Source: an uncultured Lacinutrix sp. (lineage in GTDB: Bacteria > Bacteroidota > Bacteroidia > Flavobacteriales > Flavobacteriaceae). Taken from it: DNA of 64,000 bases. Each line of letters opens with the position of its first letter. Within the stretch, counting starts at the first letter, position 1. Both the position numbers and the translations under genes were made by a program. The notes under the pieces are model-generated. The model was not told where the DNA came from. It searched no databases and was given only the letters and a program-made list of their open reading frames with translations. Where the stretch lies: NCBI RefSeq assembly GCF_947500605.1, contig NZ_CANMSJ010000011.1, positions 1-64,000 of the forward strand. The letters run 5' to 3'. Below, piece by piece: positions 13,297 through 50,493 of this stretch.

Positions 13297-13315
13297 GTTG
13301 TTTTTTTTCCGAGTA

Positions 13316-13408
13316 TGGCGTTAACGATAGTAGCGGCATACTTTTTTGTGTGAGCTTATGCACAAAAAAGATATAGAGGATAGCGCGACCCTTTTGGTAA
13401 CGCAAAAA
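13316..13408. repeat. flavobacterial intergenic element (GCGTTA ... TAACGC termini), copy 1
   Basis: The element begins GGCGTTAACGATAGTAGCGG and ends GCGACCCTTTTGGTAACGC; GCGTTA and TAACGC are inverted. Inside, CTTTTTTGTG and CACAAAAAAG form a perfect 10-bp stem. I recognise the AGTAGCGGCAT ... GATAGCGCGACCC layout from intergenic regions of other flavobacteria. A degenerate relative lies at 31998-32124. Apart from this element and the broken small gene, the 323-base gap between 13100 and 13424 holds nothing I can name. Confidence 0.55.
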
Positions 13409-20404: not shown

Positions 20405-20460
20405 AACTTTTTTTAAATTTTATATATACAGGATTTGACGAAAGCGTCGAAGGAAGTTTA

Positions 20461-20514
20461 CACTGCCTTTAGCATTTTTTATAGAGGTTGCAATCAGTCA
20501 AATCCGTCCTCGTA
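20461..20514 (-). promoter_or_regulatory. SAM-II-like riboswitch upstream of metK
   Basis: Read on the minus strand, GAGG (20508-20511) and CCTC (20484-20487) form P1. The loop between them carries GGATTTGACTGATTGCAA, and the tail reads ATAAAAAATGCTAAAGGCAGTG. The order 'GATTT, then TTGCAA, then P1, then AAAATGCTAAA' is that of SAM-II (and the related SAM-V) aptamers. ACTG in the loop (20495-20498) can pair with CAGT in the tail (20462-20465) to make the required pseudoknot. The position in front of metK fits. Assignment is by motif recall only, not by a covariance search. Confidence 0.72.
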
Positions 20515-20839
20515 ATTAATTTCGACAAAAGTATAAAAAAATATATGGATAGAAATTCCTTTTTACAATTTTATGAAAACTTTATCTTTAAGGATTAAAT
20601 CTTTAGCTTAGAAAACGGAATAATTATAAGACAATATTTATTTTAAAATAATATTAGTTTTATAAAATAGTAATAGCTTGTTTTTGGTGAAATATTTTTT
20701 GTTTAAAATTAATTTTAAAGAATTATTTTCCGTTTTATTGTTTTAAAATCAATTATTAAGAAAAATATTCTTTTTAACTTGTTTAATTAGATTTTTTTTC
20801 ACAATATTTGTGCTCACAAAGTTCAAACACTTACTGAAA

Positions 20840-20959
20840 TGTTATCAAGAAAGGTGGAGAGATAGACTCGCTGAAGCCTTAGCAACCCTTAGATTTACTA
20901 AGAAGGTGCTAAATTCTACTTAATTTTCGATTCATTTATCGAATATTGGATAGATAACT
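20840..20959 (+). promoter_or_regulatory. SAM-I (S-box) riboswitch upstream of metY
   Basis: The sequence shows the S-box core in order: GTTATCAAGAAAGGTGGAG, then GAAGCCTTAGCAACC, then AAGGTGCTAAATTC, and a closing GATAAC that pairs with GTTATC to form P1. A further hairpin (TTCGATTCATTTATCGAA) is P4-like. Immediately downstream CTAATTAC (20965-20972) and GTAATTAG (20979-20986) form an AT-rich stem followed by a T-rich run, a plausible terminator of the expression platform. The remaining intergenic bases on each side of the two riboswitches are AT-rich. AATATTTG at 20813-20820 is a 7/8 match to a -7 element. Confidence 0.93.
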
Positions 20960-21079
20960 AAAATCTAATTACCCATCTGTAATTAGTATTTCTTTTTAAC
21001 ATTTTTCTAATATGTATGTCTCATAATGAGGCTTATTTGACTTTTGAATTAATTTATTTAACTCGAAAAACTTAGAAAA

Positions 21080-45295: not shown

Positions 45296-46189
45296 CTAAG
45301 CAGTCAACTCCCTAAACATACTTTCTAAGCTAGCATTTTTTTGATTTAGCTGAAGAATCTTCAACTCATTATCATGGGCAAAATCAAAAACATGAGAACG
45401 CATATCTTCTTTTGTAGAAAAGGTGATTTCGTAAATAAAATCATGTGTATTTTTAACGCTTTTGGTATTCGGTAGTTTTAATAAAAAAGCATCTTCAACT
45501 CTGTAATCAAACTCCACAATAACTACCTGTTCTTGTCCTTCGCGTAATTCAGTTAGTTTTTTATTCGCAACAATTTCTCCTTTATTAATTATTATAACAC
45601 GATCGCACATAGCTTCTACCTCTTGCATAATGTGTGTTGATAGAAAAACTGTTTTCTCCTTGCCAATAGATTTTATAAGGTTTCTTATATCTACTAATTG
45701 ATTAGGGTCTAAACCAGTTGTAGGTTCGTCTAAAATTAAAACATCTGGATTATGTAATAACGCATTTGCTAGGCCAACACGCTGTCTGTAACCTTTAGAT
45801 AGCGCACTCATTTTTTTATGAGCCTCCGGGCCTAAACCTGTAAGTTCGATAACTTCTTCAATTCTAGATTTACTTACCTTATAAACATCGGCATTAAAAG
45901 CTAAATATTCACGAACGTATTGTTCTAAGTATAAAGGATTGTGTTCTGGTAAATAGCCAACACTTTGCTGTACTTGTTTTGCTTCAGATAAAATAGAATG
46001 CCCATTTACTGTTGCTTTACCTTCTGTAGGACTTATAAAGGTGGTCAATATTTTCATCATTGTAGATTTTCCTGCTCCATTTGGACCAAGAAACCCAACT
46101 ATTTCTGGCTTTTTAATTTCAAAAGACACATTGTTTAGTGCTTTCTGTTCACCATAAATCTTCGTTACATTTTCAACCTTTATTGACAT
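45296..46189 (-). CDS. gldA: gliding motility-associated ABC transporter ATPase GldA
   Basis: A 297-residue ABC ATPase when started at the ATG at complement 46187-46189; an in-frame ATG 6 codons upstream is less likely. Walker A is GPNGAGKST (35-43), the signature is LSKGYRQRVGLA, and Walker B is VLILDEPTTGLD. The sequence around EHNPLYLEQYVREYLAF is typical of GldA. GldF and GldG, its membrane partners, are not in the window. Similar Bacteroidota ATPases of unknown function exist, so the symbol rests on overall similarity. Confidence 0.85.
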   Translation of the reverse strand: MSIKVENVTKIYGEQKALNNVSFEIKKPEIVGFLGPNGAGKSTMMKILTTFISPTEGKATVNGHSILSEAKQVQQSVGYLPEHNPLYLEQYVREYLAFNADVYKVSKSRIEEVIELTGLGPEAHKKMSALSKGYRQRVGLANALLHNPDVLILDEPTTGLDPNQLVDIRNLIKSIGKEKTVFLSTHIMQEVEAMCDRVIIINKGEIVANKKLTELREGQEQVVIVEFDYRVEDAFLLKLPNTKSVKNTHDFIYEITFSTKEDMRSHVFDFAHDNELKILQLNQKNASLESMFRELTA

Positions 46190-46292
46190 CTTATAATCTT
46201 TCTTCAAAAATAAACATTCTGTAATTTAAACAAGACTTTGTGCAGAAATCTTTAAATCTTTATCTAAAACCTTAAAATTCATGCTTTAGTAT

Positions 46293-46322
46293 TTTGATTT
46301 GTTAAATATTTATCTACTTTAG
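46293..46322 (+). promoter_or_regulatory. probable promoter of the aromatic operon leader
   Basis: TACTTTAG at 46315-46322 matches TAnnTTTG in 7 of the defined positions except one. TTTG at 46293-46296 lies 18 bases before it. The leader peptide ATG follows 14 bases after the -7 box. Confidence 0.45.
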
Positions 46323-46335
46323 CAATATAATTATT

Positions 46336-46413
46336 ATGAAAACATTTCAAACAACATATTACAGCTGGTTTTATTTCTTTTTTAGCGAAAAGAACGAGAC
46401 TGCGTATGTGTAA
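46336..46413 (+). CDS. aromatic-rich leader peptide of the pheA operon
   Basis: The frame encodes 25 residues, ATG to TAA, beginning MKTFQTTYYSWFYFFF and ending NETAYV. Nine of residues 4-16 are Phe, Tyr or Trp (1 Trp). It precedes a perfect terminator hairpin and genes for phenylalanine and tyrosine synthesis. Too short for standard gene finders. Its role is to let the ribosome sense charged aromatic tRNAs; the 3' part of its coding sequence holds a copy of one terminator arm (see the attenuator entry). Confidence 0.85.
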   Translation: MKTFQTTYYSWFYFFFSEKNETAYV

Positions 46414-46471
46414 TTTTAATAAACATATATTTAAAACCTAAGTCTCGATAAATTTATCGAGACTTTTTTTA
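46395..46471 (+). promoter_or_regulatory. transcription attenuator of the aromatic amino acid operon
   Basis: AGTCTCGATAAA (46441-46452) and TTTATCGAGACT (46453-46464) form a perfect 12-bp palindrome followed by seven T (46465-46471), a terminator. CGAGACT also occurs at 46395-46401 inside the leader peptide gene and can pair with AGTCTCG (46441-46447). A ribosome stalled at the aromatic codons (about 46345-46383) leaves 46395-46401 free to form this antiterminator; a ribosome reaching the stop at 46411 covers it and lets the terminator form. Apart from this leader region and the promoter, the 327-base gap between gldA and pheA is plain AT-rich sequence. Confidence 0.85.
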
Positions 46472-46516: not shown

Positions 46517-47344
46517 TTGATTAAAACAGTAGCTATACAAGGAATAAAAGGATCGTTTCATCACATTGTGTCGCAAGATTACTTTGGTGAAGATACAGCT
46601 GTAAACGAGTGTTTGTCTTTCGACGAAACTGTAGATGCTTTACTATCAGGTAAAACAGAAGTAGCCATTATGGCTCTAGAAAATTCTATTGCAGGTTCAA
46701 TTATACCAAATTATGCTTTAATAGATAATAACAACCTTCATATTGTTGGTGAGTATTATTTAGATATACAGCACAATTTAATGGCATTGCCAAATCAAAG
46801 TATTGAGGATATTAAAGAGGTGCATTCGCATCCAATGGCATTATTACAATGTAAAGCATTCTTTAAAAATTATCCGCATATAAAATTAGTTGAAGATAAA
46901 GATACAGCAGATGTTGCCAAGCGAATACAGGATAAAAACCTTAAAGGTATTGCAGCCATAGCAAGTAGTTTAGCAGCTTCAATATTCGAATTAAATATTA
47001 TTGCAGAAAGCATTCAAACTATTAAACATAACGAAACACGTTTTGTAATTGTTAAGCAAAATAATTCTGAAATTAATACAAATGAAATTAATAAAGCATC
47101 AATTAAATTCGAACTCGATCACAAACGAGGAAGCTTAGCCGCAATTCTTAATGTTTTAAGCGATTGTAAACTAAACTTAACAAAAATACAATCTCTACCT
47201 AAAATCGAAACACCTTGGCTTTATGCCTTTTTTGTAGATGTTACTTTCGATGATTATAAAGATTTTGATAAGGCAAAAGCAGTAATAGAGATAATGGCAA
47301 CACATTTAAAAGTGTTAGGCGAATATAAAAACGCAAAGAAATAA
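46517..47344 (+). CDS. pheA: prephenate dehydratase
   Basis: A 275-residue enzyme converting prephenate to phenylpyruvate. It starts at TTG, which is the only start that keeps the IQGIKGSFHHIVSQDYF N-terminus. The catalytic motif is NETRFVIV (TRF). A C-terminal ACT domain (about 195-270) has KFELDHKRGSLAAILNVL and LTKIQSLP, where phenylalanine would bind for feedback. It overlaps the aminotransferase by 1 base. First structural gene after the attenuator. Confidence 0.93.
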   Translation: MIKTVAIQGIKGSFHHIVSQDYFGEDTAVNECLSFDETVDALLSGKTEVAIMALENSIAGSIIPNYALIDNNNLHIVGEYYLDIQHNLMALPNQSIEDIKEVHSHPMALLQCKAFFKNYPHIKLVEDKDTADVAKRIQDKNLKGIAAIASSLAASIFELNIIAESIQTIKHNETRFVIVKQNNSEINTNEINKASIKFELDHKRGSLAAILNVLSDCKLNLTKIQSLPKIETPWLYAFFVDVTFDDYKDFDKAKAVIEIMATHLKVLGEYKNAKK

Positions 47345-48483
47345 TGGAAGTAGCAAATAGATTACATAGTGTTGAGGAGTACTACTTTTCTAAGAAATTA
47401 AAGGAAGTTAATTCCTTGATATCTCAAGGTAAACCAATTATTAATTTAGGTATTGGTAGTCCAGATTTACAACCACCTGGAAAAGTGATTTCGGCAATTA
47501 CAGAAAGTTTTAAAGATGCAAGAGCTCATAAATATCAAAGTTATCAAGGTATACCAGAATTAAGGGAAGCGATAGCTGGTTTTTATAAAACGCATTTTCA
47601 AGTAGATGTAAATGCTGCTACAGAAGTTTTACCGTTAATGGGAAGTAAAGAAGGTATTATGCATATTTCTATGGCCTTTTTAAATGAAGGTGATGCGGTT
47701 TTAATACCAAACCCAGGATACCCAACATATACATCTGTTACTAAATTATTGCAGGCAGAACCTATTTTTTACAATTTAGATGCAGAAAATAATTGGTGTC
47801 CAAATATAGAAGAACTTGAAAAGCAAGATCTAAGTAAGGTTAAAATAATGTGGTTAAATTATCCGCACATGCCAACTGGAGCTAAAGCAACTAAAGCGGT
47901 TTTTAAAAGCATGATAGCATTTGCTAAAAAGCATGATATTTTATTGGTAAATGATAACCCTTATAGTTTTATTTTAAACAAGGAGCCATTAAGTATCTTA
48001 AGTATAGAAGGTGCCAAAGAAGTATGTTTAGAATTAAACTCTTTAAGTAAAACCTTTAATATGGCTGGATGGAGAGTTGGTATGTTACTTGGTAATAACG
48101 AGTTGCTAAATGCGGTTTTAAAAGTGAAAAGTAATATGGATTCTGGCATGTTTTACGGCATACAACAAGGCGCTATCGAGGCTTTAAACTCATCAAAAAT
48201 GTGGTTTGTAAGTTTAAATAATATTTATGAAAAACGCCGTAAACTAGTATGGGAATTAGCGACTAAGTTAAATTGTTCTTTCGATGAGAACGCAACAGGA
48301 TTGTTTGTTTGGGCAAAATTACCAGCTGCTCTTAATTCAGAAGCATTTATAGACAAGCTATTAAAAGAACATAATCTTTTTATAACACCTGGAACTATTT
48401 TTGGAAGTCAAGGAGAAGGTTATGTGCGTTTTTCATTATGTGCAACAGTCAAAGAATTAGAAGAAGCTATAACAAGAGTATGA
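47344..48483 (+). CDS. class I/II aminotransferase, probably aromatic
   Basis: 379 residues of PLP fold type I. Lys236 in NSLSKTFNMAGWRVGM binds PLP, and LNYPHMPTGA replaces the NYPNNPTGA motif. Sequence style is close to LL-diaminopimelate/aspartate aminotransferase-like enzymes. Its position between pheA and tyrA indicates transamination of phenylpyruvate or prephenate. The stop overlaps the tyrA start (ATGA). Confidence 0.88.
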   Translation: MEVANRLHSVEEYYFSKKLKEVNSLISQGKPIINLGIGSPDLQPPGKVISAITESFKDARAHKYQSYQGIPELREAIAGFYKTHFQVDVNAATEVLPLMGSKEGIMHISMAFLNEGDAVLIPNPGYPTYTSVTKLLQAEPIFYNLDAENNWCPNIEELEKQDLSKVKIMWLNYPHMPTGAKATKAVFKSMIAFAKKHDILLVNDNPYSFILNKEPLSILSIEGAKEVCLELNSLSKTFNMAGWRVGMLLGNNELLNAVLKVKSNMDSGMFYGIQQGAIEALNSSKMWFVSLNNIYEKRRKLVWELATKLNCSFDENATGLFVWAKLPAALNSEAFIDKLLKEHNLFITPGTIFGSQGEGYVRFSLCATVKELEEAITRV

Positions 48484-49334
48484 TTAATAATATATACATA
48501 ATAGGCGTTGGTTTAATAGGCGGAAGTTTAGCCTTAGATATAAAAAACAAACGACCAGATATTACTGTTTACGGTATAGATAAGAGCGAACAACATTTAA
48601 TAGAAGCTTTAGAACTAAATGTTATAGATGCTAAAGCAACGTTAGACGATTTAGATAAGGCAGACTTAGTAATATTATCAGTGCCTGTAGATGCAGCTGT
48701 AGAATTGTTGCCTAAAGTTTTAGATAAAGTGTCAGACTTCGGCCTTGTTGTAGACGTAGGCTCTACCAAATTAGATATTTGTAAAGTAGTAGAAAACCAT
48801 TTTAAAAGAAGAAATTTTTTAGCAATGCATCCTATTGCAGGAACAGAGTTTTCTGGACCAAAAGCAGCCATTTTAGATTTATTTCAGCATAAAACAAATA
48901 TTATATGTGAAGTAGAAAAAACAGCTTTTAAGCTTCAAGAAAAAGCATTAAATCTGTTTTCAGAAATAGGAATGAGAATGCGTTATATGAACCCAGAAGC
49001 ACACGATAAACACATTGCATACATGTCGCATTTATCACACATTAGTGCATTTATGTTGGGTAAAACAGTAATAGAGAAAGAAAAGAACGAACGCGATATT
49101 TTCGATATGGCAGGTTCTGGTTTCGAAAGTACTGTAAGGTTAGCAAAAAGTTCTCCAGCAATGTGGACACCAATTTTTAAACAGAATAAAGAGAATGTTA
49201 TAGAAACCTTAGAAGGTTATATCGCAAACTTAACACAGTTTAAAAACATGATGAAGAACGACGATTTTGAAGGTGTTTATAATGAAATGAAAGACACAAA
49301 TTATATTAAACAAATATTAAACGGATTAAAATAA
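48480..49334 (+). CDS. tyrA: prephenate dehydrogenase
   Basis: With the ATG at 48480 (ATGA overlap with the aminotransferase) it has 284 residues. The NAD motif is IIGVGLIGGSLALDI, and MHPIAGTEFSGPKAA is the substrate-binding block with the catalytic His. No ACT or chorismate mutase domain is fused. A start 14 codons upstream at 48438 lies in the aminotransferase frame and is rejected. Confidence 0.94.
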   Translation: MINNIYIIGVGLIGGSLALDIKNKRPDITVYGIDKSEQHLIEALELNVIDAKATLDDLDKADLVILSVPVDAAVELLPKVLDKVSDFGLVVDVGSTKLDICKVVENHFKRRNFLAMHPIAGTEFSGPKAAILDLFQHKTNIICEVEKTAFKLQEKALNLFSEIGMRMRYMNPEAHDKHIAYMSHLSHISAFMLGKTVIEKEKNERDIFDMAGSGFESTVRLAKSSPAMWTPIFKQNKENVIETLEGYIANLTQFKNMMKNDDFEGVYNEMKDTNYIKQILNGLK

Positions 49335-49410: not shown

Positions 49411-50493
49411 ATGGAAAATAAAAAAGAAATGAGAAACTGGTTGACAGACATGGCGTTGGATCATCCATTAGTAATCGCTGGACCTTGTAGTGCAGAGACA
49501 GAAGAGCAAGTTTTAAAAATAGCTCATGAGCTTAAAGATACAGATGTTAGTTATTTTAGAGCAGGTATTTGGAAACCACGTACACGTCCAGGAATGTTTG
49601 AAGGTGTTGGTGCTTTAGGTTTAAATTGGCTTAAAAAAGTAAAAGAAGAAACAGGAATGAAAACCTGTACAGAAGTTGCAAATGCTGCACACGTAAAGTT
49701 AGCGATTGAGAATGATGTAGATTTACTTTGGATTGGTGCACGATCTACTGTAAGCCCATTCATTATGCAAGAATTAGCAGATGCTTTAGCTGGAACAGAT
49801 AAAATTGTTTTAGTTAAAAACCCAGTAAATCCAGATTTAGCGTTATGGTTAGGTGGAATTGAAAGATTATATACTGCAGGTATTAAAAATTTAGGAGCAA
49901 TACACAGAGGTTTTTCTACATACGAAAAAACGAAATATAGAAACATTCCAGAATGGCAAATAGCTATCGAGTTTCAAAACAGATTTCCAGATTTACCATT
50001 AATTAACGATCCATCACATATTACAGGAAAGCGCGATATGGTTTTCGATGTGTCTCAAACGGCTTTAGATCTTAATTTCGATGGATTAATGATAGAAACA
50101 CATTTCGATCCAGATAACGCATGGAGTGATGCTGCACAGCAAGTAACACCAACGGCATTAGTGCAAATGATGGAGGATTTAAAAATTAGAAAACAAACAG
50201 ATCCAGAAGCAGAATACAATAAAGAGTTAACTAATTTAAGAGCTCAAATAGATGTTGTAGATAACCAACTTATAGATTTAATGGGCAAGCGTATGCAAGT
50301 AGCAGACGGTATTGGTCAATTAAAGAAACAAAAAAATGTTGCTGTTTTACAAAGTAAACGTTGGAATGAGATTTTAGGTAAAATGGTACTTCAAGGAGAT
50401 GAAAAAGGTTTAAGTGAAGAATTTATTTTAAAACTGTTTAAAGCAGTACACCAAGAGTCTATAAATCATCAAGAAAAAGTGATTAAAGGATAA
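49411..50493 (+). CDS. bifunctional DAHP synthase / chorismate mutase
   Basis: 360 residues. The N-terminal about 265 are a type I-beta-like 3-deoxy-7-phosphoheptulonate synthase (PLVIAGPCSAET, FRAGIWKPRTRPGMFEG, INDPSHITGKRD). Residues about 270-355 are a type II chorismate mutase (LRAQIDVVDNQLIDLMGKRM). Note the order: synthase first, mutase last. It catalyses the first shikimate step and the prephenate-forming step, so with pheA and tyrA the branch is complete. A structured leader lies directly upstream. Confidence 0.95.
   Translation: MENKKEMRNWLTDMALDHPLVIAGPCSAETEEQVLKIAHELKDTDVSYFRAGIWKPRTRPGMFEGVGALGLNWLKKVKEETGMKTCTEVANAAHVKLAIENDVDLLWIGARSTVSPFIMQELADALAGTDKIVLVKNPVNPDLALWLGGIERLYTAGIKNLGAIHRGFSTYEKTKYRNIPEWQIAIEFQNRFPDLPLINDPSHITGKRDMVFDVSQTALDLNFDGLMIETHFDPDNAWSDAAQQVTPTALVQMMEDLKIRKQTDPEAEYNKELTNLRAQIDVVDNQLIDLMGKRMQVADGIGQLKKQKNVAVLQSKRWNEILGKMVLQGDEKGLSEEFILKLFKAVHQESINHQEKVIKG

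Follow-up and report, generated by a model that had tools for sequence, protein, structure and literature searches.

A classical ribosome-mediated transcription attenuator that senses Phe and Tyr very likely lies in front of pheA in the uncultured Lacinutrix sp. whose DNA was analysed here as one stretch of 64,000 nucleotides (the window); this reading is drawn from sequence. Attenuation of the trp/phe type had been proposed for this site in a first-pass annotation. With the exception of the weight given there to Trp, the proposal is supported by a conserved leader and terminator, by RNA arms that co-vary among relatives, and by a narrow spacing between control codons and antiterminator.

The element occupies the gap of 309 bases between gldA (45296-46207, minus strand; TIGR03522 over its cut-off) and the divergent pheA (46517-47344), and all of its parts are on the plus strand. 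A leader peptide ORF of 25 codons, running from ATG to TAA at 46336-46413 and translated as MKTFQTTYYSWFYFFFSEKNETAYV, was confirmed together with its run of control codons YYSWFYFFF (46357-46383), in which Phe and Tyr are kept in relatives and Trp is optional. Behind it the DNA contains a perfect 13-nt inverted repeat (46440-46452/46453-46465), which in the RNA is predicted to fold into a terminator stem of 11 bp capped by a 4-nt loop (-13.7 kcal/mol), the 5' arm being 46440-46450 and the 3' arm 46455-46465. Seven T at 46464-46470, two of which belong to the stem, complete the 3' part of the terminator (46455-46470); the 12-bp palindrome with T7 first described is a fair rounding of this structure. 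As gldA runs the opposite way, a plus-strand terminator ends no gene on that side.

The sequence CGAGACT is also found inside the leader ORF, at 46395-46401. As had been claimed, it is exactly a copy of 46458-46464 in the 3' terminator arm and exactly the reverse complement of 46441-46447, the segment of the 5' arm that is common to terminator and antiterminator. Between the end of the aromatic run (46383) and this arm lie 11 nt, the 12 bases given earlier being counted to the first base of the arm. When 46380-46457 was folded, which leaves out most of the 3' arm, the antiterminator was obtained at -13.0 kcal/mol, close to the energy of the terminator; this fits the needs of a switch that is decided by timing. 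The fold of the 140-nt attenuator region had a z-score of -4.5, and none of 200 shuffles was as stable. The predicted antiterminator is topped by an apical helix (46404-46411 with 46423-46430, altogether 46404-46430) that reaches the leader stop codon. Across relatives this helix is weak, with a mean z of -0.65, values below -1 in 36/128 loci and none above 1. The protector hairpin of the E. coli trp attenuator is its 1:2 stem. Here, the mean unpaired value of the arm was 0.479 in its own leader and 0.559 beside shuffled ORFs, and it was lower in 79 of 128 loci, a slight difference that does not clearly show a protector stem. A 9-bp inverted repeat around the terminator (46435-46443/46485-46493) was dropped after comparison by eye with L002-L010 and is taken as a chance or genus-level feature.

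The genes downstream of the terminator, all on the plus strand, were assigned by domain searches. PheA, a prephenate dehydratase with a TTG start, matched Pfam PDT with 184.9 bits, its best NCBIfam match (PRK11898) remaining below the cut-off. It is overlapped by one base by the ORF of a class I/II aminotransferase (47344-48483; Pfam Aminotran_1_2, NCBIfam matches below cut-offs), which, judging by its place among these genes, probably acts on aromatic keto acids. The next gene is tyrA, coding for prephenate dehydrogenase (48438-49334; NCBIfam PRK08507 over its cut-off, Pfam PDH_N and PDH_C), the true start of which may lie downstream of the ORF start, and the last one encodes a DAHP synthase fused to chorismate mutase (49411-50493; Pfam DAHP_synth_1 and CM_2). 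Their spacing suggests that these four genes form one transcript. With the domains of prephenate dehydratase, prephenate dehydrogenase, aminotransferase and DAHP synthase matched, the earlier statement that the downstream genes make Phe and Tyr is borne out; as read from its sequence, the cluster is the route to Phe and Tyr together with the entry to the shikimate path.

We propose that the element would work as follows. RNA polymerase would start about 10 nt before the leader ATG, a position suggested by a promoter-like box described below, and would be trailed closely by a ribosome that reaches the dense run of Phe and Tyr codons. If charged tRNA-Phe or tRNA-Tyr were scarce, the ribosome would stall on the run with its front edge at about the first base of CGAGACT, so that this arm would be left free to pair with the nascent AGTCTCG; the terminator would then be blocked, and pheA and the genes behind it would be transcribed. 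With both tRNAs charged, the ribosome would proceed to the stop codon and cover CGAGACT. AGTCTCG would then pair with the 3' copy, and the terminator would form and stop transcription before pheA.

To assess conservation, 222 loci were collected, which gave 215 non-identical pheA upstream regions, window included, with some genomes represented twice. A leader was defined as an ORF of 12-60 codons that starts with ATG and has at least six F/Y/W in 9 codons, and a terminator was sought downstream of it; the thresholds for leader and terminator were fixed after a first look at the loci. In the 350 nt upstream of pheA, leader plus terminator was detected in 178 of the 215 regions and in none of 4300 dinucleotide shuffles, and the leader alone in 185/215 regions compared with 64/4300 shuffles. 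The combination of leader and terminator before pheA is thus real and far above chance. Among the 80 named loci, L060 alone was missed in this test, and there the element lies further upstream. L017 and L146 are apparent misses of the same kind, caused by search windows of 350 and 420 nt. In L017 and L060, the latter from Gelidibacter, repeats of about 110 nt with a GC-rich palindrome are inserted between attenuator and pheA.

The distribution was then tallied with one locus per genome, searching up to 700 nt upstream of 175 pheA genes. An aromatic leader was present in 138 of these loci and leader plus terminator in 126. In the genus, the combination was found in all 13 loci, and in the rest of the family in 81/84 (83 when the leader alone is counted), which makes 94 of 97; these 97 were examined out of 103 family matches. 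Other families of the order had it in 7 of 22 loci (leader in 8), which were chosen out of more than 120 matches so as to sample broadly. In the remainder of the class, leader plus terminator was present in 23 of 49 loci and the leader in 32, the set consisting of 48 of the 50 class-level matches (two partial ones were omitted) and L265. Elsewhere in the phylum the count was 2/7, for the best 7 of 77 phylum-level matches. The combination was absent from the loci examined in three families: f5 (0/8, one with a leader only), f16 (0/4, from genomes of 0.3-1.3 Mb) and f27 (0/7). Five of the eight f5 loci have a different PheA start, IAFLGP. Within the order, PheA was detected in 192 of 296 genomes, and those without pheA are uninformative on the element. 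Outside the class, L263 and L264 (genomes G533 and G573) keep an aromatic leader and a terminator before pheA; their PheA proteins closely resemble the Bacteroidia type (E near 1e-91), while the other members of the same families, fetched or listed, gave values near 1e-50 to 1e-56. Possibly, gene and switch moved together in these two cases.

A candidate promoter precedes the leader. The flavobacterial -7 box has the consensus TAnnTTTG according to the text available of a transcriptome study (PMC9723704), and the octamer TACTTTAG at 46315-46322, 13 nt before the leader ATG, matches this consensus with one change. In the genus and family loci, TAnnTT(T/A)G was found within 70 nt before the leader in 74/94 cases, compared with 11% of mono-shuffled copies. 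Between terminator and pheA it was found in 2/94, these stretches being shorter (median 23.5 nt); per 100 nt, the rates were 1.19 before the leader and 0.05 from terminator to pheA. As a sequence pattern, this distribution argues against transcripts that begin downstream of 46471, though it is no proof that they begin ahead of the leader.

Which amino acids would be sensed was judged from the codons. In 119 distinct leaders, the last 12 codons up to the end of the run comprise 587 F, 360 Y and 58 W among 1428 codons, and Tyr accounts for about a third of the aromatic codons (360/1005). The annotation had proposed general aromatic sensing; in the strong form of this reading, the Trp codon would weigh as much as Phe and Tyr. 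The Phe and Tyr part of this claim stood. As for Trp as a full partner, its share in the leaders is above that in ordinary proteins, which is near 1%, it occurs at several different positions, and the cluster holds a DAHP synthase, which feeds Trp too. Yet a Trp codon is present in only 57 of the 119 leaders and lacking in 62; it is lacking in 36 of the 75 distinct leaders from the rest of the family, and the leader of L003, from the same genus, has no trace of it (SRFYFFF). Moreover, the genome has a trp leader of its own. A match to Bacteroid-trp (RF01692; 57.6 bits, cut-off 49) lies on contig C9 at 118071-118195 (L228), before a gene that by eye is trpE-like; its leader reads MKTKLNHTWWWTSRNFNFVN, with three Trp codons (WWW). 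It is the only match to RF01692 in the genome, and the pheA element gave none. Because the Trp codon is optional and a separate trp leader exists, equal weight for Trp is unlikely; the sensed pair is more plausibly Phe/Tyr, with Trp at most an accessory, and general aromatic sensing is the weaker reading of the codons.

Stalling could also be brought about by the nascent peptide itself, as in tnaC, with the peptide and a ligand such as free Phe arresting the ribosome instead of an uncharged tRNA. In many leaders of the genus and family, a run like FYFFF or YFFF with a short basic segment after it does recur, as would be expected of an arrest peptide. Beyond the family, however, the order of residues varies while the richness in Phe and Tyr is kept (YFYFYYF, FFFYFYF), and similarly built His and Ile leaders precede their own pathways, which makes peptide arrest very improbable. 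The His leader (L229) is on contig C1 upstream of hisG (177817), where the peptide MNFIQSHHHHFHICTQAN is followed by a terminator. In relatives, a leader with at least four His in 9 codons plus a terminator was found at 18 of 21 hisG loci (a partial match, L296, was omitted); a further two, L281 and L282, carry a terminator but no more than three His codons, and L287 lacks both leader and terminator. Upstream of ilvD on contig C4 (ilvD match at 228435-229388, minus strand; L230), an Ile-rich leader, MKKQVINIISIIRIVIISRSQGML, precedes a terminator. The same leader recurs unchanged in L305 and almost unchanged in L317 and L313, and a variant of it occurs in L311. The ilvD test, made with I/L/V and unspecific, gave a leader at 14/20 loci and leader plus terminator at 7/20, partial matches L314, L315, L316, L319 and L320 being omitted. 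No terminator was found in the stretch searched at pheS (L233), and the homoserine dehydrogenase loci L231 and L232 begin inside genes and are uninformative. By sequence, the His, Ile and Trp leaders look like what general ribosome-mediated attenuation in these bacteria would be expected to produce. Other RNA elements detected in the window were a SAM-II riboswitch (20459-20517, minus strand) and a SAM-I riboswitch (20839-20960, plus strand), about 320 bases apart on opposite strands, and a Flavo-1 RNA at 13303-13394 (43.9 bits, gathering score 42).

Ribosome-mediated attenuation places demands on geometry, and these were examined in a reduced set of loci. From 165 distinct sets of region and arm, 135 remained after the leader was trimmed to 30 nt, and 129 of these were anchored on the arm core (L030, L036, L040, L055, L170 and L226 were omitted). 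In 102 of the 129 loci, the arm starts 9-11 nt past the last codon of the run. The ribosome was assumed to cover 15 nt in each direction from the first base of its P-site codon; when the last aromatic codon occupies the A site, the front edge of the ribosome is then at offset 9. Under this assumption, 111/129 arms begin no earlier than this edge (95 of them lie wholly past it), and 18 begin before it. Once the ribosome is on the stop codon, the arm would be fully covered in 101 loci, partly covered in 23 and left uncovered in 5, even though the distance from the run to the end of the stop codon varies between 6 and 42 nt. In this model, the geometry fits a switch in which stalling would free the arm and completion of the leader would mask it. 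Attenuation might be real and nevertheless act through translation, Rho or a hairpin-binding protein, instead of through the position of the ribosome; with an intrinsic terminator that has a T run, and an arm located just where the edge of a stalled ribosome is predicted, we regard such routes as extremely improbable.

Pairing of the leader arm with the terminator was quantified by a helix score, for which the 30 nt that follow the aromatic run were searched for their best 6-bp helix with the 5' arm of the terminator. A score of at least 12 was reached by 128 of the 135 distinct loci, compared with 13% of dinucleotide-shuffled leaders and 25% of leaders combined with the arm of another locus. 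An earlier score, in which A was stripped from the arm, was replaced, as it under-scored the Flavobacterium group; it had given a mean of 14.8 versus 9.7 for shuffled and 11.1 for swapped leaders, with 111/165 above the 95th percentile of shuffles. In the 129 anchored loci, 734 of 774 cells (94.8%) were paired, and sliding the partner by 1-3 nt reduced this to 30-45%. When arms were re-dealt among loci 200 times, the pairing averaged 84.3% (maximum 86.3%), a high value because many loci and relatives share an arm type. Cells in which both partners had changed numbered 109, compared with a mean of 33.5 and a maximum of 48 in the re-deals; these are counts of loci and not of independent events.

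The 5' arm core occurs in 12 types, for instance GTCTCG, GTCCCG, ATCCTG, GCCTCG and GACCGC. At its fourth position, 73 loci have T-A, 53 C-G and 3 T-G; at the fifth, C-G is found in 109, T-A in 17, G-C in 2 and T-G in 1; and the sixth position is the loosest, with 99/129. The alignment with relatives suggested in the first-pass annotation thus revealed conserved leader codons and conservation of all three arms, in close and distant relatives alike, including compensatory changes. Relative to the reading frame, the first base of the helix falls on codon position 3, 2 and 1 in 73, 33 and 23 of the 129 loci, respectively, and in 23/129 the ORF is already over within 12 nt of the run, indicating that the arm is conserved at the RNA level and not for the peptide. 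Although short matches are common in AT-rich DNA, as the arm-swapped leaders demonstrate, a constitutive terminator or an unrelated small-protein gene with a 7-nt match by chance has next to no credibility in view of the co-variation, the narrow spacing, the independence of reading frame and the fact that no gene on this strand would be ended by the terminator.

A structured 5' element before pheA, conserved in other genera of the Flavobacteriaceae, was reported in 2021 in a transcriptome of F. psychrophilum, together with clues for leader-peptide attenuation before amino-acid operons (PMC9723704, in the text available). With this finding, the remark in the first-pass annotation that little had been described for flavobacteria does not stand in full. 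Gene and bacterial family are the same as here, and the two elements are very probably one and the same. The main text of that study, in the portion available, gives no arms, codons or spread beyond the family for the pheA element. In the parts of the respective articles that were available, Bacteroid-trp is among the RNAs listed by Weinberg 2010 (PMC2864571) and precedes the trp operon of F. psychrophilum (PMC6414381), small ORFs reminiscent of attenuation leaders are mentioned for Bacteroides thetaiotaomicron (PMC7366714), and leader genes are noted in many phyla, citing the attenuation survey of Lopatovskaya et al. 2010 (PMC4833913). Such leaders are not described in the available portions of PMC8305728, PMC6847099 and PMC9976891; the latter two state that Bacteroidia do without Shine-Dalgarno use. 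Among the matches listed, there was no experimental study of a pheA attenuator in Bacteroidota, subscription journals being mostly outside the scope, and no study dedicated to transcription-translation coupling in Bacteroidota. The class of mechanism is long known, and the element had already been glimpsed in print for the family. The present analysis adds the arms, the meaning of the codons, the spacing and the spread into the class, for which no description was found in the literature covered.

Taken together, we lean toward a picture in which Bacteroidia have old, class-wide attenuators for Phe/Tyr, Trp, His and Ile that would be stripped down to two arms and read by ribosomes without Shine-Dalgarno use, and in which pheA and its switch may have travelled together into other classes (L263, L264). 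The spacing of 9-11 nt would then be evolutionary evidence of tight coupling, because such a switch requires a ribosome close behind the polymerase. The element thereby offers a handle on translation-transcription coupling in Bacteroidota, whose ribosomes do without Shine-Dalgarno use. Its description puts a name to a compact and testable control of the supply of Phe and Tyr in a large bacterial group, and the co-variation indicates how this control very likely works. The element reaches beyond the family with the reported pheA 5' element and could become a new Rfam family.

The closest enterobacterial counterparts are presumably the leader attenuators of pheA and pheST (Rfam Phe_leader). They have in common with the element described here a Phe-rich leader, an intrinsic terminator and an antiterminator that shares the 5' arm of the terminator, as well as the position before pheA. 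None of the Rfam 15 leader families, Phe_leader included, matched the pheA element at the gathering score, and at E up to 10 there were five sub-threshold matches, all to unrelated families; hence, there is no sign of common descent with the enterobacterial leaders. Bacteroid-trp likewise combines a leader of cognate codons with a terminator in Bacteroidota, and differs by its Trp codons and its other sequence. Unlike in the enterobacterial pheA and pheST leaders, about a third of the aromatic codons here are Tyr, no clear protector stem is seen, Shine-Dalgarno use is not expected (PMC9976891, in the portion available), and the genes behind the switch form a cluster with tyrA and DAHP synthase.
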